DNA from: Leptospirillum ferrooxidans C2-3
GTDB lineage: Bacteria > Nitrospirota > Leptospirillia > Leptospirillales > Leptospirillaceae
Reading direction: 5' to 3'
Assembly: GCF_000284315.1 (NCBI RefSeq)
Contig: NC_017094.1
Span: 465,486-529,485 of the forward strand
DNA: 64,000 nucleotides
Position 1 is the first letter of the stretch. Each line of letters begins with the position of its first letter. The notes below the pieces were generated by a model. It was given only the letters and a program-made list of their open reading frames with translations, did no database searches and was not told the DNA's origin. The position numbers and the translations under genes were made by a program. Shown piece by piece: positions 1,820 through 15,661 of this stretch.

Positions 1820-2341
1820 TCATTCTTCAATTGGAATTGACTGCACCATGGGAGACGCGTCACATACTTCTGTGTATCCTGATAAGAGATCAAGTGCATG
1901 CCGGATAACCGGAATCAGGAGGCTTAAATGATCAGCAACGGCCTTTGGGCTCCCTGGTAAATTGATGATCAATGTTTTTCCCCGTGTTCCACAAACACCG
2001 CGCGAGAGCATTGCATGCGGAGTTTTTAGTAGACCGGCAGCCCTTGCCGCCTCGGACATTCCGGGGATCTCCCGTTCAAGGACATCCCGGGTTGCCTCTG
2101 GCGTCACATCGCGAGGAGCAAGCCCCGTTCCACCAGTCGTTACGATCAGGTCACTGTACCCATTGGCACTTGATTCCAGCAACTTTTCCCTGATGGCAGT
2201 ACGGTCATCGGGAAGGATGGCCACCTCAATCGAGCTTCCGGCAAATGCCTCTTCCAACATTTTGACCGCCATTGGCCCGGATTGGTCGGAGCGAATACCG
2301 GCATAGCTTCTGTCACTTAGAGTCAGGACGGCAATGCGCAT
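1820..2341 (-). CDS. mogA: Molybdopterin adenylyltransferase
   Basis: MogA adenylylates molybdopterin, the step that prepares it for molybdate insertion by MoeA in the cytoplasm. The 173-residue protein shows the MoCF fold signatures: MRIAVLTLSDR at the start, TTGGTGLAPRDVTPEAT (about residues 68-84) and INLPGSPKAV near residue 126, which form the molybdopterin site. MoaB-type proteins share these motifs and do a similar job, so the symbol could be moaB. It is the last gene of the leftward nitrate/molybdenum-cofactor operon and overlaps moaC by 19 bases. Confidence 0.9.
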   Translation of the reverse strand: MRIAVLTLSDRSYAGIRSDQSGPMAVKMLEEAFAGSSIEVAILPDDRTAIREKLLESSANGYSDLIVTTGGTGLAPRDVTPEATRDVLEREIPGMSEAARAAGLLKTPHAMLSRGVCGTRGKTLIINLPGSPKAVADHLSLLIPVIRHALDLLSGYTEVCDASPMVQSIPIEE

Positions 2342-2868
2342 GATCCTTCACCCTCTTTCTCTAATTCGTTCTTCCGGATAAAGGTACCTCTTCTGCCACC
2401 CGATTTCATTTCAAGCTGAATGCATTCGATGACTGCTGACTGACCTTTCGCCAGAGGTTTACACAGGTCATATACCGTCAGACAAGCGGCGGCAACAGCT
2501 GTGAGTGCTTCCATCTCGACTCCGGTTTTGGCATGCGTACGAACTTGAACCCGGACCATAACAACATCCTGAAGAATCTCCAGATGAACCTCCACTGACT
2601 CAAGCGGCAACGGATGGCAAAGAGGGAGAATCTCGTCGGTTCGCTTGGCTGCCATGATGCCTGCAACCCGGGCGACTTCAAAAACATTTCCTTTCGGGAC
2701 CTTGTTCGCCCGGATACATTCGATCACTTCCCTGGCAAGACGTATCCTTCCAGAAGCAATCGCAATCCTCTCTGTAACTTCTTTTGCTCCCACATCCACC
2801 ATCCGGGCTCGGGAGCCCGGATCTTCCGCTAACTCCACATATCCTCCATTCGTGCACTCTCGAGCCAT
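2323..2868 (-). CDS. moaC: Cyclic pyranopterin monophosphate synthase
   Basis: MoaC converts the MoaA product into cyclic pyranopterin monophosphate, the first stable intermediate of molybdenum-cofactor synthesis. The family core is clear: ARMVDVGAKEVTERIAIASG, then GIMAAKRTDEILPLCHPL with its catalytic Lys and His, and KTGVEMEALTAVAAACLTVYDLCK. The chosen start gives an N-terminal extension of about 20 residues and overlaps moeA by 40 bases. A shorter start at the Met of MVDVG is possible but would remove residues usually present. The C-terminal tail after KSGGRRG is slightly longer than usual. Confidence 0.93.
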   Translation of the reverse strand: MARECTNGGYVELAEDPGSRARMVDVGAKEVTERIAIASGRIRLAREVIECIRANKVPKGNVFEVARVAGIMAAKRTDEILPLCHPLPLESVEVHLEILQDVVMVRVQVRTHAKTGVEMEALTAVAAACLTVYDLCKPLAKGQSAVIECIQLEMKSGGRRGTFIRKNELEKEGEGSCALPS

Positions 2869-4052
2869 TCAAATTCCCAATCTTTCTCTTTAAAACTTGC
2901 TGTATCGCCTTCTTTGGAAGGGGGAACGCACACGATACTGTTCGCCTTGTGCACCGAAAAGAGATCAGAAGAATGACGGCCCTCATAAACAGTTAAGCGA
3001 AATGGCTGGTCTGTCCCCCGATCACCCTGGACCCGGGCAAGCTCAAAGCGGGTTCGCCCACTCTGGTTGGGGGTAATCCTGGCGATACCCCGATCACGAA
3101 ATGACGGAAGGATATTCCCCTGCATCATACGAATGACCGGAGTTACATAGCGATGGAAACACAGGTGAGCAGACAAGGGGTTTCCAGGAAGAGCAAAATA
3201 AAGCCGGCCTCCCTTTCGGGCAAAGAGGAATGGTTTTCCGGGTTTTTGTGAAACCTTATGAAAAAGGATCTCTGCCCCAGTTTTTTGAAGTGCCTCCGGA
3301 ACAAGATCAAAAAGTCCCTCTGAAACACCCCCAGTGATCAGCACTACCTCTGCTTCTGAGGCCTGCTCGAGTGCCTGTGTCAGTGAAAAAAGATCATCGT
3401 CGGCACTCTGTGATCCTATCTTTGTAACTCCGAGCATACAAGCCATTGCCATCAGCATTGGGCCATTGGCATCATGAATTTGTGCTTCTTCAAGAAATCT
3501 CCCTTCACGGACGATCTCTCGTCCTGTTACGATAATCGCAACTTGCGGAGGAGGGATGACAGGTACCGTTTTTTGGCCAAACGAAGCCAGTACAGCAATA
3601 ACCAGCGGAGTCACGATCGTTCCTTTCTTGAGAACGGTCTCGCCATTTCTGCACTCGCTCCCGCGTTTTGACATGTATTGACCCAACTCATGATTCTGAG
3701 TGGAAGTCATCCACGCCCCATCTGATTCAACATCCTCATAAGGAAAAACGAGATCCGTTCCTAATGGGCAGGGAGCCCCAGTCATAATTTCCACGCACTC
3801 ACCCGCATGAAGTGGGATCGGCCAACTTTCTCCTGCCTTCAAAATACCCATTCGTCGGTATCGTCCTGACACCGATCCCAAACACACGGCAAACCCGTCC
3901 ATCATCGATCGGTCAAAAGAAGGAAAATCACAGGGAGCCTGAATATCCTCCGAGAGGCGACACCCAAGCGCATCTGCAAGGGACAAGCATACGGGGGACA
4001 ACTGGGCAACATTTCTCAAAACGGTGCTGAGTGCCTCATCGGGAGTGATCAT
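2829..4052 (-). CDS. moeA: Molybdopterin molybdenumtransferase
   Basis: MoeA inserts molybdate into adenylylated molybdopterin, giving the Mo-MPT cofactor. The 407-residue length is normal. Family motifs are present: CDFPSFDRSMMDGFAV near residue 40, the EIMTGAPCP segment, the MoCF-like IIVTGREIV and TGGVSEGLFD segments, and FALPGNPLSAHLCF near residue 290. It overlaps moaE upstream by 17 bases. No mobA (which would make the bis-MGD form) is seen in the cluster, so the local products suffice only for the plain Mo-MPT form used by sulfite-oxidase-family enzymes. Confidence 0.95.
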   Translation of the reverse strand: MITPDEALSTVLRNVAQLSPVCLSLADALGCRLSEDIQAPCDFPSFDRSMMDGFAVCLGSVSGRYRRMGILKAGESWPIPLHAGECVEIMTGAPCPLGTDLVFPYEDVESDGAWMTSTQNHELGQYMSKRGSECRNGETVLKKGTIVTPLVIAVLASFGQKTVPVIPPPQVAIIVTGREIVREGRFLEEAQIHDANGPMLMAMACMLGVTKIGSQSADDDLFSLTQALEQASEAEVVLITGGVSEGLFDLVPEALQKTGAEILFHKVSQKPGKPFLFARKGGRLYFALPGNPLSAHLCFHRYVTPVIRMMQGNILPSFRDRGIARITPNQSGRTRFELARVQGDRGTDQPFRLTVYEGRHSSDLFSVHKANSIVCVPPSKEGDTASFKEKDWEFEWLESARMEDMWS

Positions 4053-4509
4053 GGCAGGCCATTCCTATTTTCTTCTCTGTAGCGGAAGGAAATGTTTCGT
4101 CCTTGCAGTTCACCCACACAGCCATTCCATCACCGTAGAATTCCTTTTTCCATATCGGAAGACGCTGTTTTATCGCATCGATCACGAAAGAACAAGCCTC
4201 AAAAGCTGGAGCCCGATGAACGGCCGCGACACCAATCCAAACCGCCATCTCCCCAAGCTCAACCTTTCCGGTCCTATGAGCACAAAGAACCTCCAGAATG
4301 TCATACTTTTCCCTCACTTCCGCAAGGATCGCCAACCCTTCTCTCTCTGCAAGTGCCTCATAGGCCTCATACTCAAGGAACAGTACCGATCGCCCCCGGT
4401 GCTGGTTCCGGACGCGGCCTTCAAAAATGACCACTCCTCCAGCTCCCGGATGATAGAGAGAAGAACGTAGAACCCCATCAGAAATAGCCGTTCTCATGAA
4501 CTGAAACAT
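4036..4509 (-). CDS. moaE: Molybdopterin synthase catalytic subunit
   Basis: MoaE is the large subunit of molybdopterin synthase. With thiocarboxylated MoaD it adds two sulfurs to cyclic pyranopterin monophosphate. Typical motifs are VIFEGRVRNQHRG, LEYEAYEALAEREG, the conserved HRTGKVELGEMAVWIGVAAVH (active-site loop) and the C-terminal IWKKEFYGDG with the catalytic lysines. It starts immediately after the moaD stop (TGAATG, no spacer), which fits coupled production of a 1:1 complex. Confidence 0.95.
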   Translation of the reverse strand: MFQFMRTAISDGVLRSSLYHPGAGGVVIFEGRVRNQHRGRSVLFLEYEAYEALAEREGLAILAEVREKYDILEVLCAHRTGKVELGEMAVWIGVAAVHRAPAFEACSFVIDAIKQRLPIWKKEFYGDGMAVWVNCKDETFPSATEKKIGMACHDHSR

Positions 4510-4821
4510 TCATCCCCCTCCAAATGGAGGAAGGAAAACAACAGTGTCTCCGTGTACAAGGGAGTCATCCGGGTTTGTGAAAGTCCCGTTCACTGCGACC
4601 CGAAGAAGAGAAAAGGGGTACTCAAGATCATATTTTTTCCTTATCTCCTCATAGAGAGATTCAGGTGTTCTGGCATTTGTCAAAATCTCTTCCTCCAGCC
4701 TCCCGGCTTTCTCTCTAATGGGACCAAAATAAACCATGAAAAAGGTGCGAGGGGCCACTGACGCGCTTTCTTCGGAACGGTTCAATATGCTTGGAAAACG
4801 ATTACCACCCCTATCTGGCAT
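4510..4821 (-). CDS. moaD: Molybdopterin synthase sulfur carrier subunit
   Basis: MoaD is a ubiquitin-like sulfur carrier that is thiocarboxylated at its C-terminal glycine. The protein ends VVFLPPFGGG, so the required terminal Gly-Gly is present. The fold begins around residue 27 (FFMVYFGPIREKAG), giving an unusual N-terminal extension of about 28 residues. That longer start is favoured by a strong AGGAGG eight bases upstream of 4821. An internal Met at 4737 would give a more standard 75-residue protein. It lies 12 bases after moaA. Confidence 0.9.
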   Translation of the reverse strand: MPDRGGNRFPSILNRSEESASVAPRTFFMVYFGPIREKAGRLEEEILTNARTPESLYEEIRKKYDLEYPFSLLRVAVNGTFTNPDDSLVHGDTVVFLPPFGGG

Positions 4822-4833
4822 GGATCATGCCTC

Positions 4834-5796
4834 CTATCCCCCGATCCGGACCATCTGCTGAGATGTCCATTCCCGAATGGGCGTTTTTTTCTCTGTGTGA
4901 GCTGCCCGGATTAACCGGACAGCCTGTTCTCTTTCACCTGTCCGCCATAATGAGAGAAGATCTAATCCGTCATAATCGTGCAAACACGGAAACAACCATC
5001 CTCTTGAATCGATGCGCAACCGGTCACATTCTCCACAGAACGGTTCCGAGATGGTTGTAATGAATCCAACAACAGTTTTCTTCCCACGAAATTGGAAGAG
5101 ATAACGCGACGCCGTTCCCTTCAAGCCAAGAGGAATCGGATCGCCAAAATAGGGGCGAAGAAATGCCAGTGCTTCGTCAGCTGACAGAAACTCGGATTTG
5201 AAGTATTCAGAAGCCACTCCGATCGGCATTAATTCGATAAAGCGCAATTCACATCTCATGTCAGTCGCAAAATCGACAAGCTCATGCAAGGATTGCCCGT
5301 TAAAATGACGCAAAAGAACCGTATTGAGCTTGAGACTCCTAAACCCCGACTTTTTTGCGGCCAGAATACCTTCCAAAACATCGTCAAACGCATTGACCCT
5401 GGCAATTTCTTCGAATACACCGAATTCTGTCGTATCTAAGCTTATATTCATCGTATCAAGACCGGACTCTTTCAGTGCCTTTACCTGGCGGGAAAGCAGA
5501 AGCCCGTTTGTGGTTAAAGCAATTTCTGCCTTTGGAAGAAGCTTTCGGACCTTTCCAACAAATTCATGGAGGGCGGGACGAACTAGCGGGTCACCTCCCG
5601 TCAAACGCAATTTGTAAATTGGTACAGCGGTGTCCACCATCTCCACAAGGGCCAACAGATGTTCATCTGATAGATGAGACGGGTGCATCGCACTGTCTTC
5701 TGTCTTATCAGGCCTGCAGTAAAGGCATCTCAAGTTACAGCGATCTGTCACAGAAAGACGGAGGTAAAGAGGACGGATGGGAAAAGTGATCATCAT
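4834..5796 (-). CDS. moaA: GTP 3',8-cyclase, radical SAM
   Basis: MoaA starts molybdenum-cofactor synthesis by rearranging GTP through a radical S-adenosylmethionine mechanism. The N-terminal [4Fe-4S] motif is CNLRCLYC (about residues 20-27). The second, C-terminal cluster is seen as CGECDRLRIDSRGWLFPC, and the protein ends VRIGG with the double glycine needed for activity. Length (320) is normal. The start ATG shares one base with the stop of the upstream PII gene (TAATG), indicating coupling between nitrogen signalling and cofactor synthesis genes. Confidence 0.96.
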   Translation of the reverse strand: MMITFPIRPLYLRLSVTDRCNLRCLYCRPDKTEDSAMHPSHLSDEHLLALVEMVDTAVPIYKLRLTGGDPLVRPALHEFVGKVRKLLPKAEIALTTNGLLLSRQVKALKESGLDTMNISLDTTEFGVFEEIARVNAFDDVLEGILAAKKSGFRSLKLNTVLLRHFNGQSLHELVDFATDMRCELRFIELMPIGVASEYFKSEFLSADEALAFLRPYFGDPIPLGLKGTASRYLFQFRGKKTVVGFITTISEPFCGECDRLRIDSRGWLFPCLHDYDGLDLLSLWRTGEREQAVRLIRAAHTEKKTPIREWTSQQMVRIGG

Positions 5797-6167
5797 TAAA
5801 CACCCTTTCCGGAAAGTGGAGTTGATTCATGATCAGTTATTTTCTGTGAAGCGACCGATTTTCCACTCTCACGGATTGTCCGGGATTCAAGAAGGGAAGA
5901 AACAAAGATCTTTCCATCCCCTGGGTTACCAGTACAGGCCGCAATCCGGATCGCATTGACAGCACGATCCATATCGTGATTTTCAACTACAATCATGAAA
6001 AAGACCTTCGCAATTTCTGCGTAATGGATGGTTCCAACATGAATCCCCCTTTGCCGTCCATGTCCCATCACATCCATTCGAGTCAAAGCAAGAATGCCTG
6101 TTTTTTCAAGGGAAAGAACAACATCATTTGCTTTTTCCGGCCTAACAATTGCCTGGATCATTTTCAC
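5796..6167 (-). CDS. NifI1-like PII signalling protein (second copy)
   Basis: This is a small PII-family protein that would bind ATP/ADP and 2-oxoglutarate and report nitrogen status to a partner. It opens KMIQAIVRPEKAND, has a short T-loop region MGHGRQRGIHVGTIHY and carries the PII signature GNPGDGKIFVSSL. The loop resembles NifI1 rather than GlnB/GlnK, with no Tyr51-type uridylylation site visible. I chose the GTG at 6167 because AAGGAGG lies five bases upstream and the product then starts like NifI1 proteins; a longer ATG start at 6194 lacks such a site. The roughly 20-residue C-terminal tail is unusual. Confidence 0.88.
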   Translation of the reverse strand: MKMIQAIVRPEKANDVVLSLEKTGILALTRMDVMGHGRQRGIHVGTIHYAEIAKVFFMIVVENHDMDRAVNAIRIAACTGNPGDGKIFVSSLLESRTIRESGKSVASQKITDHESTPLSGKGV

Positions 6168-6307
6168 AAAGGCCTCCTTCGAGGATAATGGCATCCGGTC
6201 AAATCAGCTGGCATCCACAGTCCTCATCTGAAGCTGCAAGATGAACGGCTAGTTATAGAAAAAGCAGTCCTACCGCGGAGCACATCGTAAAATAGGACAA
6301 CGTACAG

Positions 6308-9300
6308 TCATTTCAAGATTTCCTCATGGATATCATCCTGGCACTCCATCCGGATTTTCTCCCAAATATGCGGACGGCTGGACTCAAGGAGCGTTTCTAC
6401 CTCTTTTCCAAGCATTTTCACCCCCACCCGATCGACAATATTCTGGAAGGTCTCCACTCCAATTCGACGGTTATCGATGCATTCGAGGAGTGTTTCGAAT
6501 ACCGGAAGAACCATCTCTTCAGTCAACCCCTTAAGCACCACTTCGCCAAGTCGAACTTCCTTCCCCATCCGCCCGCCAAGGTAGACGGAATAGGCATAGC
6601 GCCTGTCATCACCAACCACGGTCATGGCACCAGAAAGCCCGATATCCGCTACCTGATGTTTGGAACAGCTGTTTGGACATCCGGAAATGGCAACCGTTAC
6701 TTGATCCATCAGCTCCATGACCTTCGGATTGGGAGATTTAAAATCATGCAGCAGGGAGCGCGCCACCCCCTGGGCATCTGTCACTGCCAAAACACAGAAC
6801 TCCGTTCCGGGACATGCCACAATATTCGGGTTCGTGCCAACAGAAAATGGGGACAGCCCGAGACCCCTGATTTCATGGATAGCGGATGGTCCATGCCTTT
6901 CAGTAATACCCTGGATCTCAATATTCTGCTCCTTCGTCAACTGAAGGATGCCGTCATCTCCATACCGGCGAGTGATCTTTGACAGGGCCTTCAACTGGTA
7001 GGAGGCAAGCTCTCCAAGAGGCACATCCACCGGAATGAGGACCTTTCCCCGTTGCTTTTGTGGAAGACACCCTTCAAGGATACGAGAGGGATACAAGGAA
7101 AACGGAAACGGACGGGGAGACTGTTTTTCTTCCGCAAAACGGAATTCCTTATTCTCGGGCAAAGACTTCTTTCCCTGGAAAACCTGATCAAATATAGTTG
7201 AGAATTTCTCCTTCCCCCACTGCTCAACCAACCACTTGAGACGGGATTTAGCCTTGTTCCTGTTTCCGTGTTTTGTATATATTTCAAAAATAGCCTGACA
7301 GGCAGGGAGTGCTTCGCGAAGAGGAATAAATTCCTTGAGCCTGAACCCAAGAACCGGGTGTGCGCCCAGACTTCCTCCGGCCCATAGCTCAAATCCAAAA
7401 GACTCCGCTTGATTTTGCTCCGCCGGGGCCGGAACGACCCGAAATCCAATATCATTGATCCACACATCCGGATCGCAGAGAGGACAGGCTGAAAAAAGAA
7501 TATTCAGCCGATTCGGAAGACCAGGATTAATCATGTCCGAACGCTGAACAAAGTAATCACTGATGGACCGAGCGATAGGACCAACATCCATGAGCGCATC
7601 CGGACTGACCGAACCATGAGGACAGGCCATTACATTCCGCATGGTGTGACCACAACTCGACCGGGTCGACAGCCCAACTGAATCCAGTCCTTCCCATATA
7701 TACTGCATGTCATGCAACCGGATCCAATGCAGTTCCAGATTCTGACGTGTCGAGATATGGACTCTTCCACGAGCGTATTTCTTCGATAGCCGGGCAAGTT
7801 CCACACCTTGATCGTAGGAGAGGCGACCTCCCGGAATTCGAATCCGGACCATGAAAAATCCCGGATGCTTCTGACTGCAGATGCCATAAGTCTTCAGACG
7901 ATAAAAATCGTCTTCCGAGAGAGCCGCAATGTCTTTTTTGAAGATTTCATCAAAATCGAGTCCGAGACCTTCTTTCTTGATTCTTTCAATCTCGAGCATC
8001 TTGGGGTAGGTCGGCGGGTATTCCGACAGGAGTGTCCTGATCGGAGGATTATCGATAGAAACGGCGGTGGCTGGTGAAGCTTTTACGGATTTCTGTCCAA
8101 TCTCACTTCGGGCAATCAGGTCTGTCACGGCTTGTGAACAACTTCCGCATCCGGTGCTGGCTTTCGTATGTTTTGCAACTTCGTCCCGGGATTTAAGGCC
8201 CTTCGTCCTGACCGCTGCAAGGATCGTTCCTCGCGTCACATTGTGGCAAACGCACACCGTCTCTTTATCGTCTCCTTCAATCAAGGCAGATGAAACGGAT
8301 TTCCCAAAAAAATCTTCCCTGAGAGCCAAGGCCGAACCAGCCGAGTTGATAAGGCCCAACACCCGGGGACTTCCTGCAGGATCTCCCACAAAGATCGCCC
8401 CTTCCAGACGATCTCCCCTAAAAATCAGTTTTCGGTAACTTCCACGATGGGAATCCAGTGCAACCAGTTCTTCTGTTCCGCTACCACCAAGAATTTTGCC
8501 CGCCGAGATCACTGACACCCCTGAAACCTTGAGCGCTGTCGAGCATTCCGTCCCGACGTAAGAAAGGGGCGCTTCCGAGCCATGTGTCAGATTGTGAACA
8601 AGAATCTTTGCCTGTTCCCTGAGCGGTATCACGAGTCCGTAACAATGCCCCCGATGTTCAATCACATCTCCCAGGGCATACACATCTAACGCGCTGGTCA
8701 TAAGATCGTCTTTGACCAGGACACCCTTGTTAACATCAATCCCGGACGAAATCGCAAGGCGTGTGTCTGGAAGAATTCCGGCAGAAATCAGAACAAGGTC
8801 AGCGGGAAGATGCTCACCTGTGCTGAGCTCCACCGCGCTAACGTTACCCCCAATTCCATGAATTTGAGAGAGAACGGTGTTGACACGGATCTGTATCCCC
8901 ATGCGCTCGATTTCTTTTTTGAGCAGGTGACCGCCCATCTGATCAAGTTGCTGGTCCATCACCCATCCCCTCAGATGAAGAACTGTCGCAGCAACACCCA
9001 TGTCTGAAAGCCCCCGGGCGCTCTCAAGGCCAAGAAGTCCACCGCCAACAACAACGGCCTTCCGGCTTTTACGAGCTCTTTCCGAAACCTCCCTGACGTC
9101 TTCTATTGTCCTGAGCACATGGACACCTTTGAGTAAAACTCCCGGAACAGGTGGTATAAAGGGACGAGCGCCAACCGCGATCACGGCAATATCATACGGA
9201 GTTGAATTTCCATTCTCGTCCCAGATAGTTTTTGCCATCGAATCAATACGATCGATCCGCACCCCTGTCTTCAGGGTTATTCCGTTAAGAGAATACCAGT

Positions 9301-9502
9301 CACTCGCTTTGAGCAGAATCTTCTCTGTCGTCTTTCGTCCGGTCAGGAGGTCTACCAGAAAAATCCGGTTGTAAGCCGAGGTAAGAGTCTCATCACCAAA
9401 AACTGTTATTTCCCACTGGGTTTTAACAGAAGAAGGAAGTTCTCCCCACGATTCAAGAAAGGCATCTGTCGCCATTCCATTACCAATAATGACAATCTTC
9501 AT
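6308..9502 (-). CDS. NirB-NirA fusion assimilatory nitrite reductase
   Basis: This 1064-residue protein should reduce nitrite to ammonium with NAD(P)H. Residues 1-410 form a NirB-like FAD/NAD(P) flavoprotein (VIIGNGMA; VVVGGGLLGLE; ALGDVIEHRG). Residues about 415-465 are a BFD-type [2Fe-2S] domain (CVCHN...GCGSC). The rest is a full two-half nitrite/sulfite reductase like NirA, with siroheme/[4Fe-4S] ligands in CPGTEFC and SGCPNSCSKH. Normal NirB carries a different, shorter reductase part and works with NirD, so this is an unusual self-contained layout; no nirD is nearby. The ATG at 9502 is preferred for its AAGGA site. It could in principle reduce sulfite, but the NarK neighbour argues for nitrite. 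Confidence 0.9.
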   Translation of the reverse strand: MKIVIIGNGMATDAFLESWGELPSSVKTQWEITVFGDETLTSAYNRIFLVDLLTGRKTTEKILLKASDWYSLNGITLKTGVRIDRIDSMAKTIWDENGNSTPYDIAVIAVGARPFIPPVPGVLLKGVHVLRTIEDVREVSERARKSRKAVVVGGGLLGLESARGLSDMGVAATVLHLRGWVMDQQLDQMGGHLLKKEIERMGIQIRVNTVLSQIHGIGGNVSAVELSTGEHLPADLVLISAGILPDTRLAISSGIDVNKGVLVKDDLMTSALDVYALGDVIEHRGHCYGLVIPLREQAKILVHNLTHGSEAPLSYVGTECSTALKVSGVSVISAGKILGGSGTEELVALDSHRGSYRKLIFRGDRLEGAIFVGDPAGSPRVLGLINSAGSALALREDFFGKSVSSALIEGDDKETVCVCHNVTRGTILAAVRTKGLKSRDEVAKHTKASTGCGSCSQAVTDLIARSEIGQKSVKASPATAVSIDNPPIRTLLSEYPPTYPKMLEIERIKKEGLGLDFDEIFKKDIAALSEDDFYRLKTYGICSQKHPGFFMVRIRIPGGRLSYDQGVELARLSKKYARGRVHISTRQNLELHWIRLHDMQYIWEGLDSVGLSTRSSCGHTMRNVMACPHGSVSPDALMDVGPIARSISDYFVQRSDMINPGLPNRLNILFSACPLCDPDVWINDIGFRVVPAPAEQNQAESFGFELWAGGSLGAHPVLGFRLKEFIPLREALPACQAIFEIYTKHGNRNKAKSRLKWLVEQWGKEKFSTIFDQVFQGKKSLPENKEFRFAEEKQSPRPFPFSLYPSRILEGCLPQKQRGKVLIPVDVPLGELASYQLKALSKITRRYGDDGILQLTKEQNIEIQGITERHGPSAIHEIRGLGLSPFSVGTNPNIVACPGTEFCVLAVTDAQGVARSLLHDFKSPNPKVMELMDQVTVAISGCPNSCSKHQVADIGLSGAMTVVGDDRRYAYSVYLGGRMGKEVRLGEVVLKGLTEEMVLPVFETLLECIDNRRIGVETFQNIVDRVGVKMLGKEVETLLESSRPHIWEKIRMECQDDIHEEILK

Positions 9503-9529
9503 GGGACTTTTTCCTTTCAAAATATATGC

Positions 9530-10831
9530 TCAACCTCCGAAGACAACTTCCATCGGAACACGAACAGCCGGGGGGAGAAGCGGCAACCCGCGATCCCTCT
9601 CGGGAGAAATCTCTGGAACCGGTAGCCATTCGTGCTCCCAGTTTTTTCGTTTAAGAAAAACCACTGTCCCGCAGAAAAACGCTATAAAAGAAAAGACCAC
9701 AAAACCTGCACCCGTAAGATTCCAGTACTCGCGCAGGACTCCGAAGAGACTGGGCAGGAAAAATCCGCCCAAACCACCAGCTGCTCCGACAATTCCCGAA
9801 ACAACACCAATCTGGGAAGAAAAGCGCTGGGGCACCAGCTGAAACACCGCGCCATTCCCGATTCCAAGGGCCAGAATACCTATTGTCAATAGGAGAATGG
9901 CGACTGGAACGACCGGAAGAAATACTCCGAACAACATAAACGACAGGGCTACAAGCAAATAGATGACAGTGAGAACGCGCAATCCTCCAAAACGGTCTCC
10001 AAGGACCCCGCCAACTGGACGAAAGAAGCTTCCGGATAAAACGGCCAATCCCGTGAGATTTCCTGCTGCAATGGCGCTAAGGCCATAACGGTCGTGATAA
10101 AGGATGTTCAGATAACTTGTGAGACCGACAAACCCTCCAAAAGTTGTCCCGTAAAACAGGCAGAACCACCAAAGATCCCTGACTTTTAAAAGCTCAAGAT
10201 ACGGACGAATTCCCGTAGGAGCCGCAGTCACTGGAGGCTCCTTTGCAAGCCAGGTAAAGAGGACCCAGACCACAAGAACAGGAATGATAGCCAACCCAAA
10301 AACTCTATGCCAACCCAGATGATAGGTAACGGCGAGGGTTGGTGCCAGGAACACCGCAATAAGGGTTCCACTGTTCCCCGCCCCGGCAATACCCATCGCG
10401 ATACCCTGATTCTCACGCGGGTACCACCGGCTTGCCAACGGAAGCGCCACAGCAAAACTGGCCCCGGCAATTCCCAGAAACAACGCGACCACCAAAAGCT
10501 CGTAGAAGCTTTTCCCTCCAAGCCATGCCCATCCGAGGGGAAGGATCGTCACCAAAAGACTTGTCATTCCTACTTTTTTGGGACCGAACCGGTCTGACAG
10601 AAGTCCCAGGATAATCCGGAAGAAAGCCCCTCCCAGCAGTGGAACTGAAACAAGAAACCCTTTCTGAAAAGCTGACAGATGCAGATCTTTGGCGATAAGA
10701 ACACTCAGCGCTCCAATCAGCATCCACACCATAAAACTCACATCAAAATAGAGAAAAGCGGACAAAAGAGTTTTTGGATGACCGCTTTTTAAAGAACTGA
10801 TGATGGGTTGCCCTTTGCGACTATTCTCCAT
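9530..10831 (-). CDS. narK: NarK-type nitrate/nitrite transporter (MFS)
   Basis: This 12-helix major-facilitator protein of the inner membrane imports nitrate and/or nitrite. The nitrate signature motifs are present in both halves: GIAGAGNSGT around residue 128, and a second stretch around residue 325 containing FSSQIGVVSGIVGAAGGLG. The MFS loop motif GLLSDRFGPKK lies after helix 2. I chose the ATG at 10831 (MENSRKGQ) because the longer reading adds 50 basic, non-membrane residues overlapping the upstream gene. The chosen start overlaps the NifI1-like gene by 11 bases and follows a GAGG site. The nitrite reductase start is 27 bases downstream. Confidence 0.92.
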   Translation of the reverse strand: MENSRKGQPIISSLKSGHPKTLLSAFLYFDVSFMVWMLIGALSVLIAKDLHLSAFQKGFLVSVPLLGGAFFRIILGLLSDRFGPKKVGMTSLLVTILPLGWAWLGGKSFYELLVVALFLGIAGASFAVALPLASRWYPRENQGIAMGIAGAGNSGTLIAVFLAPTLAVTYHLGWHRVFGLAIIPVLVVWVLFTWLAKEPPVTAAPTGIRPYLELLKVRDLWWFCLFYGTTFGGFVGLTSYLNILYHDRYGLSAIAAGNLTGLAVLSGSFFRPVGGVLGDRFGGLRVLTVIYLLVALSFMLFGVFLPVVPVAILLLTIGILALGIGNGAVFQLVPQRFSSQIGVVSGIVGAAGGLGGFFLPSLFGVLREYWNLTGAGFVVFSFIAFFCGTVVFLKRKNWEHEWLPVPEISPERDRGLPLLPPAVRVPMEVVFGG

Positions 10832-11144
10832 GTTCCTCGGCTCCTGTTCGGATGGTATGAGATGACAGAACCTCCTGGATAAAGATCTTTCCGTCCCCGG
10901 GGTGCCCCGTATAAGCTGCTTCCTCGATACACTGAACAACCGCTGCCAAATCTGTATCCGAAACCACCACAAGAAATTCAAGTTTCGACAGAGTGTCGTA
11001 ACTCACATCTCCCACCTGAATTCCCTGCTGCTGTCCGCGACCTACAACAGGAAATTTAGTCATCGCATAGAATCCGCCGGATTCCAGACTTTTTAGAACC
11101 TGAGGCTCTTTTTCGGAGCGAACGATGGCCCGTATGAGCTTCAA
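10821..11144 (-). CDS. NifI1-like PII signalling protein
   Basis: The 107-residue PII-family regulator begins MKLIRAIVRSEKE, has a short T-loop with VVGRGQQQGIQVGDVSYD and the signature HPGDGKIFIQEV, and ends HTIRTGAEEHGE. This pattern is that of NifI1, the partner of NifI2 in direct control of nitrogenase in archaea and some bacteria. Here it overlaps by four bases (ATGA) the end of a molybdoprotein that carries a NifI2-like domain, so the pair likely forms a mixed PII complex acting on nitrate assimilation. That role is inference; nucleotide and 2-oxoglutarate binding is family knowledge. Confidence 0.9.
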   Translation of the reverse strand: MKLIRAIVRSEKEPQVLKSLESGGFYAMTKFPVVGRGQQQGIQVGDVSYDTLSKLEFLVVVSDTDLAAVVQCIEEAAYTGHPGDGKIFIQEVLSSHTIRTGAEEHGE

Positions 11145-12295
11145 ATGGCATCCTCCCCTGTTTCTCCGGTGCTGATCCGAATGGCAGTCTCCATTTTAAG
11201 CACAAAAATTTTTCCATCCCCAAATTGGCCTTTTTTACCGCTTTGGTTAGCTTTTTTAATGATTTCAACCGCTTCGTTCACGGATGACTCCTTCACTACA
11301 AACATAAACATCTGCCGTGGCAGAAACCGTATGGCCGCTTCTGAGGTCTCCTCTCCTTTGAACTTGAGCCCTTTCTGACGACCTCTCCCCAATACTCCAT
11401 AGGTGGAGTAAGAAAGAAATCCTCCCTCCTCCAGCGCTTTCTGGGTTGCCTGTCGACGTTCCGGGCGCACAATGACCATGATCTCGCACAGGACGTCTTT
11501 CTCTGATCCCCATTCCACTTCCACCCCTTCCTCCCCGGACGGTTCGCCAGACAACAACCGTGCATCAATTCTCGGGGCAGAAAGTGAATGGGTTGGAAAA
11601 TCCTCTTTTTTGGGCGGAGATAAAATACCACTTGCAGATGCGGGAGCCCCCAAAGGTGGTGGATCACCGGCTTTTCCGGAAGGTACGACAACACCAAGGC
11701 GCTTTACCCAAGCATCGTTTAGCTGCCCACTGGGACTTTGTCCCAGGAGGCGTTTGATTCCGACTGGATCATTCCGAAAAACCCGTATTCCTCCGAGCCA
11801 CTTAACGCTCTTGTATCCCTGAAGAAACGGGACAACCAGCCGGAGAGGACCACCATGCTGCTCGGGAAGAGGTTCACCATTCAGACCGAAAGCGAGTAGT
11901 ACCCTCGGGTCTCTCGCCTCATCTCTGGACAAGGTTTCGAAATAAACGCCATCTCTTGAGTAAAAGGCAAAATATCCATCAATGGGTGCATCCACTCGAA
12001 GATGATCGATCAAATCCACAAGACGGATGCCTTCCCACTGAACATTTTCATACCAGTTAAAGAGCTGGCAAATAATGGGAATATCCTGCTTTATCCGGGG
12101 AAGAGATGAAAGAGAAGACCAAGGGATCAGGCGAGGGTGCTCCTCTAATCCGCACACTTCCAGCCGGACGTCATCAAGGATGATTCCAGGCGGAATGGGA
12201 TAGAGACAAAGAACAGGTAAAGGCTCTGATTCAAAATCAATTCTGAAAAATTTGTCAGCAAATTTTGGAGGAATGATCCCTTCACGTTTCTTCAA
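11141..12295 (-). CDS. Sulfite-oxidase-family molybdoprotein fused to a NifI2-like PII domain
   Basis: Residues 25-185 form a cytoplasmic YuiH-type molybdopterin oxidoreductase domain. Cys76 in IIC76QLFNW is the likely Mo ligand, with the family motifs QWEGIRLVDLI, LNGEPLPEQHGGPLRLVVP and GYKSVKWLGGI. A proline-rich linker (about 190-262) leads to a complete PII domain at 268-384 (CEIMVIVRPER; LGRGRQKGL; FGDGKIFVLKM; TAIRISTGETGEDAI), which is NifI2-like. No signal peptide is present. It is the first gene of the nitrate operon, started by TTG with GGAGG seven bases upstream. Because no other nitrate reductase lies here and plant nitrate reductases belong to the same cofactor fold, it may reduce nitrate under direct 2-oxoglutarate/ATP control. 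I know of no described protein with this fusion. Confidence 0.92.
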   Translation of the reverse strand: MKKREGIIPPKFADKFFRIDFESEPLPVLCLYPIPPGIILDDVRLEVCGLEEHPRLIPWSSLSSLPRIKQDIPIICQLFNWYENVQWEGIRLVDLIDHLRVDAPIDGYFAFYSRDGVYFETLSRDEARDPRVLLAFGLNGEPLPEQHGGPLRLVVPFLQGYKSVKWLGGIRVFRNDPVGIKRLLGQSPSGQLNDAWVKRLGVVVPSGKAGDPPPLGAPASASGILSPPKKEDFPTHSLSAPRIDARLLSGEPSGEEGVEVEWGSEKDVLCEIMVIVRPERRQATQKALEEGGFLSYSTYGVLGRGRQKGLKFKGEETSEAAIRFLPRQMFMFVVKESSVNEAVEIIKKANQSGKKGQFGDGKIFVLKMETAIRISTGETGEDAI

Positions 12296-12484: not shown

Positions 12485-12801
12485 CCATCAACGTGAGAAA
12501 TAAGATTCCATCATCCAGAAACAAATCCATCTCATAACATCCCTTTAAAAAAGGAAAAGGGCCATTTTTGCAAAAGATCTCCCTCTCCATTCAAACATGG
12601 GGGGTGAAGGCTGTATGCCCCCCACCGAAAGATCATGTGTTTGTGGCGGGAGCGATGAATCAACTCCAAAACAGACTCTTCATATTTACAGCCATTTTTT
12701 ACACGGCACACAATTTGCTAAGAGCTGCGAAGGGCACTGGCTCTTACGACATACCGAGCTGTAAAGCGGCAGTCATGATTGATCTTGACAATGGAGAGAA
12801 C

Positions 12802-14418
12802 ATGACAATACTGGGGATCCGCTCTTCGTTGCTCCTTATCATATTTGTCCTATGTTTCAGAGAAATTTCGTGGACGGCAAATGCATGGAGCTCTTCGCTA
12901 ACTACACCTGATCAATCCTCCTCAGCATCAACAGGCCCGAAGCAGGGATCTTCAAGCTCCAACAATCAAGACGATACTCCGTTCAAATCAGAAGTACACC
13001 GGTCTTTTCTGAATCTTATCCCTGATGCACCTCCCCCGGGGTATGCCCAAATGGTGAGTAAATGGCTCATCATGGTCTATGGGTTCATCGAACTCGATAC
13101 CATCTATGACTCTACGAATTCATTCAACAATTGGCCGTTCAACTCAGGGGCCGCGAATTCCCAGACAGTGGAAACCAACGCGATTCCTCCGACAACCAAT
13201 CCCAGTCTCGGTCAGACAGTGGATCACCCCTCATTCGGGTTCGATGCCAATAACTCCCGACTTGGTTTTGCCATTTCTTCTCCAAACTATAATGGGTATA
13301 AGGTTCGAAGCCTTCTCGAGATGGACTTTCTCAATACTCCCGGTGAATGCCAATATGGAGGATCCTTCCCGTGTGGAACGAATTCCGGACCCGGCATGTT
13401 CCAATTTCCCGTTCCACGGATCCGACTTGCTTTTATGGATATCAGCAGCCAGAATTGGGGGAATCTGCTTATTGGGCAATATTGGTCCCTATTCGGCTGG
13501 AGACCTTATTATATGTACAACTCTTTGCAGATCGTTTCGGGTCCCGGCTCCCCCACGGCATGGTTCCCACAAATCCGCTATTATCGGATCTTCCACTTTT
13601 CTCACGGAAACAAGGCAGAAATAGCAGTGTCCGCCATGATGCCTCCCTCCGAGAGTTTCGCCTTCCCGGCTTTTGTGGAAGGGATCAAATGGGTCAATAC
13701 AAACTGGATGGGAGAAGATACGCTGGGTAACAGCGCAAAGGGACCTTCCCCACTTTCGATCGGGTTCTCAGATGTCCAAACAAACTATAATGGTTCTTTT
13801 ATTCCATCAGCCGGAGCAGGTACACAAACGTTCAATAAATCCACATCAGCCTATGCTTTGGATTTACTTCTCCCCATTATTCCTATCCAGAACGACAATC
13901 CTGGAAATACCCTGACCCTGGCAGCAGAATTCACTTATGGGCAAGGCGATGCCTGGCTCTTTCCCAATCTTACCTTCGGCTTGGGATCTTATGCCGGAAC
14001 AGCGGGAGCTTCCGGGATTCCCAGTGGGGGACTGATCCCCGCCGGCAATGGCATCCTCCAGGGAGATGAGTTCGTTCCGCTGGATCTTGAAACCTTTTAC
14101 CTGAATCTTCAGTATTACTTTCCTGATCAGGCCAAAACATGGATTTCCGTTGGTTTTGCCGGCGACATCGGAACGAACATACAGTCTCTCGCAAATTCCA
14201 TCGGCCCGAAAACCCTCGGAGGAGGAGTTTCAAGCAATGGACTTTACAAATACCTCGCTCCTTGGTCACGAAACACTTACACCTTTGTAAACCTCTCCCA
14301 TGATCTCACTCCGGCGGTCCGCGTGTCTCTTGAAGTTGGAAGTTACAATACACTCTACACCACCGGGATAACGGCAGCAGATCAGCGGGCAATGATGTCC
14401 TGGTTCTACTTTTTCTAA
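12802..14418 (+). CDS. DcaP-like outer-membrane porin
   Basis: The 538-residue protein starts with a signal sequence (MTILGIRSSLLLIIFVLCF, then TANAWS), passes through a Ser/Thr/Gln-rich linker, and continues as a beta-barrel rich in alternating aromatic strands (FGFDANNSRLGFAISSPNYNGYKV; LAFMDISSQNWGNLLIGQYW). It ends in Phe (SWFYFF), as outer-membrane barrels do. The ATG at 12802 was chosen because GGAGAG precedes it and a signal peptide follows; the open frame runs 78 codons further upstream without such features. It is divergent from the nitrate operon, so uptake of nitrate or another anion across the outer membrane is a reasonable guess, not shown. Confidence 0.8.
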   Translation: MTILGIRSSLLLIIFVLCFREISWTANAWSSSLTTPDQSSSASTGPKQGSSSSNNQDDTPFKSEVHRSFLNLIPDAPPPGYAQMVSKWLIMVYGFIELDTIYDSTNSFNNWPFNSGAANSQTVETNAIPPTTNPSLGQTVDHPSFGFDANNSRLGFAISSPNYNGYKVRSLLEMDFLNTPGECQYGGSFPCGTNSGPGMFQFPVPRIRLAFMDISSQNWGNLLIGQYWSLFGWRPYYMYNSLQIVSGPGSPTAWFPQIRYYRIFHFSHGNKAEIAVSAMMPPSESFAFPAFVEGIKWVNTNWMGEDTLGNSAKGPSPLSIGFSDVQTNYNGSFIPSAGAGTQTFNKSTSAYALDLLLPIIPIQNDNPGNTLTLAAEFTYGQGDAWLFPNLTFGLGSYAGTAGASGIPSGGLIPAGNGILQGDEFVPLDLETFYLNLQYYFPDQAKTWISVGFAGDIGTNIQSLANSIGPKTLGGGVSSNGLYKYLAPWSRNTYTFVNLSHDLTPAVRVSLEVGSYNTLYTTGITAADQRAMMSWFYFF

Positions 14419-14529: not shown

Positions 14530-14640
14530 TTATCAACTACCCGCCACTAAGCCGAAGCTGTCGTGGGGGTTTGCAGTTCAAGCGTTCGATTCAGACTGCG
14601 ATAGGCCGATTGATTGCGGCCTTGAAGCGAATGTTCCGTG
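14530..14640 (-). ncRNA. Probable TnpB guide RNA (omega/reRNA) region
   Basis: TnpB genes of IS200/IS605 elements overlap at their 3' end with a structured RNA that reaches the right end of the element and carries the guide. Here the sequence just past the tnpB stop contains a strong hairpin (14541-14569: CCCCCAC...GTGGCGGG around a UUCG-capped AGC/GCU stem), followed on the minus strand by GTAGTTGATAAATC. The end of the scaffold is probably near 14533. Boundaries are inferred. Confidence 0.45.
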
Positions 14641-15661
14641 CGGCATTGATGTCCGCATGTTCGGTGTGTTTACAGATCAAACAGGAGAAATGTTCTTGAG
14701 ACTTTCGGTTGTCTTTTTCGCAATGTCCACAAACAGAGCATGTGCGGGAGGTGTTTCGTGGATCGACGACCACCACGGGAACGCCTTCCAGAACAGCCTT
14801 GTAGGTGATAAAGCGTCTCAACTGGTCAAACGCCCATTTTCCGAATCGTTCCTTTTGGCTCTTTCCAACCATTGTCCGGCCGTTGAATCCCTTGAGATCC
14901 TCAAGGGCGATACCTCGTCCGGTGCCTTTTGCCTTGGAAACGATCTTTTTCGAAAGACAGTGATTCGTGTCTTTCTTGAATCGCGCTTCTTTGCCAGACA
15001 CTTTTTTCAGGTGGCGTTTGGCATTCTTCGTTCCTTTCTCCTGAAGCGCTTTTTTCAGGGTGTGGATCTTTTCCCGGACATGATCCACTCCTTCTCCGGA
15101 GAACGATTCTCCATCGGAGTCGGTGGAGAGATTCACAATGCCCATATCGACTCCGAGAAACTCTTCGGGGTCATAGGGTGTTCCGTCCGGAACATCGATC
15201 ACGAGATTCAGGAAGAATTTCCCGCCGGAGGGGGTGAGATCCGCCTGTCCGAGCATCTTGTTCCGGTCGAGCGGAGCGTAGTGGCCGAAGATCAACGGAA
15301 CGGTGATCCGTCCGTGGATGGTCGCAAGAGAAGCATGGGACAGGGACTTGAAAGACAGAAGACGCTTGTCATACTCCATGGCCGATTGTTTCTTGAAAAA
15401 GTGGAGCGTTTTCTTCTCCGTCCTGTAGCTGCCGGAAACCTTGGCAATGGCCCGGACGATCATCTGTGAGGTGAGGGCGGGAAACTGTTCCCTCGCTTCA
15501 AAATAGACCAGATGGTGGAGTTTCATCTGGTACGGTGTTCCTGCCTCAAAGGACTTTTTGGAAATCCAGTTGCAGGCGTCGTTGAACGTCTCGATCGTCT
15601 CCAGAAGAGACTTGGCCTCTTCTTTGGTTGGGGTCAGTTTGACCTTCAATGCTTTTTTCAT
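14591..15661 (-). CDS. tnpB: TnpB, RNA-guided endonuclease of an IS200/IS605-type element
   Basis: The 356-residue protein has the OrfB_IS605 layout. RuvC-like catalytic residues are seen as Asp in LGVDMGIVNL, Glu in GIALEDLKGF and Asp in HADINAARNI. The zinc finger is CSVCGHC...CLIC. All key residues are intact, so it is probably an active RNA-guided nuclease. No tnpA lies alongside, making this a tnpB-only (IS1341-type) unit that depends on a transposase elsewhere. The predicted guide RNA lies at the 3' end of the gene. Confidence 0.93.
   Translation of the reverse strand: MKKALKVKLTPTKEEAKSLLETIETFNDACNWISKKSFEAGTPYQMKLHHLVYFEAREQFPALTSQMIVRAIAKVSGSYRTEKKTLHFFKKQSAMEYDKRLLSFKSLSHASLATIHGRITVPLIFGHYAPLDRNKMLGQADLTPSGGKFFLNLVIDVPDGTPYDPEEFLGVDMGIVNLSTDSDGESFSGEGVDHVREKIHTLKKALQEKGTKNAKRHLKKVSGKEARFKKDTNHCLSKKIVSKAKGTGRGIALEDLKGFNGRTMVGKSQKERFGKWAFDQLRRFITYKAVLEGVPVVVVDPRNTSRTCSVCGHCEKDNRKSQEHFSCLICKHTEHADINAARNIRFKAAINRPIAV

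Follow-up and report, generated by a model that had tools for sequence, protein, structure and literature searches.

The window analysed here is a stretch of 64,000 nucleotides from the genome of the iron-oxidising bacterium Leptospirillum ferrooxidans C2-3, a complete assembly with one contig only (2.56 Mb, 99.97% complete). On its minus strand lies an operon headed by a gene in which a molybdenum oxidoreductase domain (MOX) is joined to a signaling domain of the PII family. PII proteins normally report on the nitrogen status of the cell as free-standing sensors. The gene order is MOX-PII, PII, NarK, nitrite reductase, PII, moaA, moaD, moaE, moeA, moaC, and mogA/moaB. The individual features are as follows.

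11141..12295, minus strand: MOX-PII fusion gene, 384 aa, TTG start, comprising the molybdenum oxidoreductase domain, a linker and the PII domain
11768..12181, minus strand: sulfite-oxidase-fold molybdopterin domain, Pfam stretch of residues 39-176 (PF00174, high pLDDT in the AF2 model, Foldseek)
12068..12070, minus strand: codon of Cys76, the predicted Mo ligand, in the motif C-Q-[IL]-F-N-W (aligned with 1ogp, invariant in 21 MOX sequences)
11507..11674, minus strand: linker, predicted to be disordered, residues 208-263 (pLDDT < 50, variable among homologues)
11144..11491, minus strand: C-terminal PII domain, NifI2-like, residues 269-384 (PF00543, best solved match 9p1x_G, tree)
10821..11144, minus strand: NifI1-like PII, its first 4 bases shared with the end of the fusion gene (PF00543, best solved match 9p1x_H)
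9530..10831, minus strand: NarK-family nitrate/nitrite MFS transporter with trimmed start, the ORF opening at 10981 (TIGR00886, 280 bits, cut-off 312)
6308..9520, minus strand: nitrite reductase, a NirB-type FAD/BFD [2Fe-2S] half fused to a NirA-type siroheme half (Pfam, NCBIfam)
5796..6194, minus strand: second NifI1-like PII (PF00543, best solved match 9p1x_H)
4834..5796, minus strand: moaA (TIGR02666, 283.5 bits)
4510..4821, minus strand: moaD (TIGR01682, 48.8 bits; ThiS)
4036..4509, minus strand: moaE (PF02391, E = 5e-33)
2829..4052, minus strand: moeA (MoeA_N and MoCF_biosynth)
2323..2868, minus strand: moaC (TIGR00581, above cut-off)
1820..2341, minus strand: mogA/moaB-type molybdopterin adenylyltransferase (PF00994; PRK09417, 132 bits)

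In Pfam, the nitrite reductase is composed of Pyr_redox_2, Rubredoxin_C, Fer2_BFD, and two NIR_SIR domains. Transposase-like ORFs (DDE/IS3-like and TnpB-like, as judged by reading the sequence) are located on both sides of the nitrate and molybdenum cofactor (Moco) cluster, at 27-1619 and 14591-15661, and given these flanks the cluster may represent a mobile island. Divergent from the fusion gene, a plus-strand ORF of 616 aa (12568-14418) is conserved next to MOX-PII in L033 and L034, the two relatives from Leptospirillum. It has no Pfam match and looks like an outer-membrane porin.

The Pfam content of MOX-PII is exactly two domains, and both score well above their cut-offs: Oxidored_molyb (PF00174) with E = 9.6e-28 and 97.3 bits (cut-off 24) at residues 39-176, and P-II (PF00543) with E = 2.1e-17 and 63.8 bits (cut-off 25) at residues 271-378. 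The chain also carries Cys76, HGGP, and KSVKW, confirming the first-pass annotation, which had claimed a fusion of a Mo domain and a PII domain in one chain. The neighbors it had named, i.e., the PII gene at 10821-11144, NarK, the nitrite reductase, and the second PII, were likewise recovered with Pfam and NCBIfam. The reading frame is that of the minus strand, its TTG start is preceded by a GGAGG motif, and the plus strand of 11141-12295 is riddled with stops. In an AlphaFold model built with an alignment of 25 homologues, two confident domains are separated by the disordered linker, and the T-loop of the second domain is floppy. Foldseek matched the MOX half to sulfite oxidases, SorA/SorT, and YedY, and the second half to GlnK/PII proteins. 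Inspection of the sequence revealed no visible Tat or export signal which, together with the presence of PII within the chain, indicates that MOX-PII is a cytoplasmic protein.

Full-length fusions recur in eight other genomes (53-89% identity) of a sample of 296 Nitrospirota, with more in Lindowbacteria and Acidobacteria, so that MOX-PII is not a product of chance or of faulty assembly. In total, the fusion is present in 14 genomes from three phyla, and these 14 independent occurrences rule out an assembly or annotation artefact as its source. The unfused catalytic gene was found in 11 more genomes, including two archaeal MAGs. Besides Leptospirillum, the carriers of the fusion are scattered and mostly uncultured microbes. 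In two genomes of the Nitrospirota sample, the catalytic domain is encoded by a gene of its own next to a free-standing PII gene, and a scan of the genomes of 84,980 species detected MOX also in Lindowbacteria, Acidobacteria, Dehalococcoidia, and the two archaeal MAGs. A 620-aa PII-like frame in G044 proved to be an ordinary separate PII gene.

In the phylogenetic tree, MOX forms one clade (99/98). The sequences are compatible with a single origin of the fused forms, which group together in 84% of the bootstraps on a weak branch (82/49). At each of the 25 MOX loci whose flanks were informative (Nitrospirota, Lindowbacteria, Acidobacteria, Chloroflexota, and the two archaeal MAGs; tallied by hand), NarK and/or a siroheme nitrite reductase is found beside MOX, and 19 of these loci have both. 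As a limited control, none of 14 other PF00174 loci had such neighbors, with only 1.5 kb of flank available per locus. In the unfused group, NirB usually follows directly after MOX.

Cys76 aligns with the Mo-ligand cysteine of plant sulfite oxidase (1ogp) and belongs to the 49 positions that are invariant among 21 MOX sequences, as do F79, N80, R114, D115, R131, R152, K162, K165, and W166. In MOX, the Mo-ligand motif is C-Q-[IL]-F-N-W, apart from one unfused copy with Ser for Gln and one copy with Cys for Trp. This motif stands in place of CAGNRR, which is observed in plant sulfite oxidase and also known from nitrate reductase, and the substrate-binding arginines known from both enzymes are unrecognisable in it. 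Among the PDB matches of MOX, those to sulfite oxidases and YedY/MsrP score highest and those to eukaryotic nitrate reductase (2bii, 2bih) lowest, and Pfam detected no Mo-co dimerisation, cytochrome b5, or FAD domain in MOX-PII. Scores against curated NCBIfam equivalogs fell short of the cut-offs, with 52.6 bits for MsrP (cut-off 207) and 34-37 bits for the SorA/SorT/SoxC sulfite dehydrogenases (cut-offs 420-600).

The first-pass annotation had suggested a nitrate reductase built on the fold of the plant enzyme. Nitrate reductase stands as the best functional reading, but the specific likeness to the plant enzyme had to be abandoned because the accessory domains and CAGNRR are missing and eukaryotic nitrate reductase is the weakest of the PDB matches. 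Judged by sequence, MOX is an independent branch of the sulfite-oxidase (SUOX) fold, and its origin is most likely independent of both the DMSO reductase family and plant nitrate reductase. If MOX reduces nitrate, it would do so with a pocket of its own, and it is here that the functional case is weakest.

MOX-PII is the only PF00174 protein in the complete genome. The annotation had seen no NasA or NarB in the operon, and had named beforehand the discovery of such an enzyme elsewhere in the genome as grounds for giving up its proposal. Our search of the whole genome for the DMSO reductase family returned NuoG as the sole match, with no NasA, NarB, or NapA, and searches of the same genome for a NarB relative and for the xanthine oxidase family found none. 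MobA makes the bis-MGD cofactor for enzymes of the DMSO reductase family, and an enzyme of the SUOX fold has no such need. It was not detectable in the window genome, where the best match reached 19.5 bits within a 541-aa ORF. In other genomes with MOX only, MobA scores were similarly absent (G061) or low (26 bits or less in G156, G232, and G264; 38.6 bits in G254), and NarB-bearing relatives scored 77-94 bits. The genome thus contains no other Moco enzyme and no detectable MobA, yet a Moco-synthesis cluster is part of the MOX-PII operon. MOX-PII therefore appears to be the sole Moco customer of this genome, by its fold needing only Mo-MPT.

In three relatives (G138, G184, and G240), a lone PII heads the operon at the position where fused relatives have MOX-PII. 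These head PIIs are nested inside the fused-PII clade (branches 95/90 and 96/95), and a tree constraining the fused PIIs to a separate clade was rejected (delta lnL 22.5, AU p = 0.003). Two characters of the sequences point the same way: every fused and every head PII carries RIS or RIN (RVS in one) at a site that holds Arg in other PIIs, and a short insertion before GDG is common to both groups. A tblastn search upstream of the lone head PIIs found no MOX remnants. All three genomes carry a NarB-like enzyme, which is present in 20 of the 296 Nitrospirota genomes (nominal hypergeometric p 2.7e-4, without correction for kinship), suggesting that the catalytic half has been lost where NarB exists. 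In G138, the NarB-like gene is found about 3 kb beyond the operon, and in G130 a single cluster comprises a lone NifI2-like PII, NarK, the NarB-like enzyme, a DmsBC-like partner, and NirB. The plain reading of these sequences is that a NarB-type nitrate reductase replaces MOX in these relatives, and an enzyme that stands in for MOX in this way would imply that MOX does the same job.

Two qualifications apply to this comparison. The assignment of the NarB-like proteins rests partly on context because they score below every curated cut-off, with Fdh-alpha as the top score; in the PDB, they match periplasmic nitrate reductase best, barely ahead of FdhF. Furthermore, MOX and NarB do not strictly exclude each other, since both are present in G292 and in the genome of L103. 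A NarB-like enzyme occurs in one of ten sampled MOX genomes, which is no lower than the base rate of 6.8%, and the absence of NarB from MOX genomes therefore proves nothing by itself.

We consider it likely that MOX is a nitrate reductase. The fuller statement, that MOX-PII is a SUOX-fold nitrate reductase of the assimilatory kind to which a NifI2-type PII is tethered, is probable to a somewhat lesser degree. In the mechanism that we propose, the small SUOX-fold domain would reside in the cytoplasm and bind one Mo-MPT via Cys76. Nitrate imported by NarK would be reduced to nitrite by MOX, and the neighboring nitrite reductase would convert nitrite to ammonium, its NirB-type NADH/FAD/[2Fe-2S] half being the likely electron donor for both steps. 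This assignment of the donor is made by analogy, because the ichthyosporean chimeric nitrate reductase CS-pNR joins a SUOX-fold nitrate-reducing module with the same NirB-type Pyr_redox and BFD donor half (PMC6400420). In CS-pNR the donor is fused to the reductase, whereas in the MOX-PII operon the candidate donor is the N-terminal half of the adjoining nitrite reductase, and MOX is fused to PII instead. The donor may vary between lineages, since the acidobacterial locus L104 has only the BFD and siroheme domains and the archaeal locus L098 a ferredoxin-type NirA.

Alternatively, the operon could serve nitrite only, and the Mo domain under PII control could have another use during nitrite assimilation, such as MsrP-like repair of oxidised methionines or the reduction of another N- or S-oxide. 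The closest characterised relatives of MOX are indeed MsrP and the sulfite oxidases, NarK can transport nitrite as well as nitrate, and the joint presence of MOX and a NarB-like enzyme in L103 and G292 would agree with this reading. We nevertheless regard this explanation as unlikely: MsrP and the bacterial sulfite dehydrogenases are exported and MOX-PII is cytoplasmic, the MOX half is lost in relatives with NarB, and NarB occupies the same operon place in G130. The window genome would, moreover, be left without a nitrate reductase, and the complete Moco pathway encoded in this operon would serve no more than a side reaction.

The best PDB profile match of the fused PII is 9p1x_G (120 bits; next match 95), a PII chain of a nitrogenase-containing entry, which favours the NifI2-like character ascribed to this domain at first sight. 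In pairwise searches, the fused PII scored 51.9 bits with the GlnK and 44.8 bits with the NifI2 of its own genome. PDB 9p1x also holds a nitrogenase alpha chain, and its H and G chains occur in a ratio of 12:6, which is why we read it as a NifI1/NifI2-nitrogenase complex; G is the longer and H the shorter PII chain. For both free PIIs of the operon the best PDB match is 9p1x_H, and they gave 101 bits (10821..11144) and 103 bits (5796..6194) with the NifI1 of the genome's own nif cluster versus 41-45 bits with GlnK. By these sequence scores, the two free PIIs are clearly NifI1-like, and a mixed trimer would be in keeping with an operon that encodes one NifI2-like and two NifI1-like chains. A further NifI1/NifI2 pair is encoded in the nif cluster of this genome (G000:C1:2501391-2502137; L117 7392-8163), and its NifI2 has an unusually long T-loop insertion.

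The preferred reading, a nitrate reductase under PII control, would have the fused NifI2-type PII and the NifI1-like operon PIIs form a heterotrimer sensing 2-oxoglutarate and adenine nucleotides. When nitrogen is plentiful, this heterotrimer would block MOX or its docking to the donor, as the free NifI1/NifI2 proteins act on nitrogenase. Gating of MOX-PII by 2-oxoglutarate, ATP, and ADP would be direct. From the data above we infer the substrate, the electron donor, and the sign and ligands of regulation, the regulatory part being modeled on NifI.

Every fused copy retains the Gln39-equivalent, G-R-x-x-Q-x-G-L, and GDGK/R. The second Arg of the C-terminal RIR, usually a basic position of the nucleotide site, is Ser or Asn in every fused copy, and the Lys58-equivalent is Arg in the Leptospirillum fused PII. 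The change from RIR to RIS means that nucleotide affinity or specificity may differ. Both substitutions, as well as the unfused state of MOX in several lineages, would agree with a nitrate reductase whose PII is an oligomerisation or localisation module without effector sensing. This seems improbable to us, as the Gln39-equivalent and the two motifs named with it are kept in all fused copies, NifI1-like partner genes remain in the operon, and PII persists alone after MOX loss and so has a function of its own. Very improbable is a role of MOX as a non-catalytic or slow sensor of nitrate or Moco supply acting via PII on NarK or Nir: the fusion to a signaling domain, the unusual active-site motif, and the NarB-like enzyme alongside MOX in two genomes are compatible with it, but 11 genomes have unfused MOX with separate PII at like loci, as expected of an enzyme, the 49 invariant positions include the Mo-ligand Cys, and the window genome has no other nitrate reductase.

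Compared with known systems, MsrP/YedY resembles MOX in its short SUOX fold lacking the Mo-co dimerisation domain and in its short Cys-to-Trp loop. MOX-PII differs in its cytoplasmic location without a Tat signal, one extra loop residue, its nitrate locus, and the fusion to PII. Eukaryotic nitrate reductase has the fold superfamily in common with MOX, for which the same reaction is predicted, but MOX is devoid of Mo-co_dimer, cytochrome b5 and FAD domains, and CAGNRR. In the published view (PMC6400420), the eukaryotic enzyme arose from eukaryotic SUOX and is confined to eukaryotes. NasA/NasC/NarB take the equivalent place in the NarK-Nir-PII operons of the relatives G130 and G138; they have the DMSO reductase family fold with bis-MGD and 4Fe-4S, and no sequence relation to MOX. 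With respect to NifI1/NifI2, the fused PII resembles the longer and the free operon PIIs the shorter PII chain of 9p1x, and the fused PII differs in being covalently tied to its target, an oxidoreductase of a nitrate locus.

To our knowledge, every prokaryotic nitrate reductase characterised so far is a member of the DMSO reductase family, and the SUOX fold has been recruited for nitrate only in eukaryotes. We found no description of a PII-fused enzyme or of a prokaryotic SUOX-type nitrate reductase in the open-licence literature, which is no proof of absence. The most far-reaching proposal, to which we give an even chance, is that MOX represents a further, independently evolved class of assimilatory nitrate reductases of the SUOX fold in bacteria and archaea that uses Mo-MPT only, and that one lineage holds the first known enzyme with a covalent PII sensor, reading 2-oxoglutarate in a mixed trimer with two NifI1-like subunits. 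If true, this would be a second recruitment of the SUOX fold, spanning bacteria and archaea, and genomes would be read differently for nitrate assimilation; Leptospirillum and its relatives would currently score as incapable of nitrate reduction. With PII fused to its target, the stoichiometry and the identity of the regulated enzyme are fixed, so that PII signaling would be directly measurable in one purified chain. In addition, the operon illustrates how a regulator lineage outlived its own enzyme once a different enzyme had taken over.

Several loci outside the window deserve mention. In a Thaumarchaeota MAG (L098, JACPSZ010000017.1, 7964-11983), NirA, unfused MOX, and NarK are consecutive. 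The locus lies on a 234-kb contig amid archaeal-type genes (AMP phosphorylase, archaeal-type MoaC and MoeA), and contamination as the source of this copy was rejected on account of these surroundings. As MOX is present in only 1 of 120 genomes of this class, the archaeal copy is likely the result of a transfer into archaea. A Euryarchaeota MAG (L109, 2-4878) has three consecutive PII genes, two of them NifI2-like, followed by MOX, NarK, and a fused electron-transfer-flavoprotein gene. In the complete genome of Candidatus Manganitrophus GAC4 (L106, 9902-11049), the MOX gene is split across two reading frames, reflecting either a sequencing error or a broken gene. Finally, the Nitrospirota NarB-like enzyme is followed by a single chain (L077 5805-7649, L103 6624-8507, L125 592-2253, and L126 3728-5608) that combines a 4Fe-4S DmsB-like part with a DmsC-like membrane anchor (Pfam for L077, L103, and L125), which suggests a quinol link for the seemingly cytoplasmic NarB-type enzyme.
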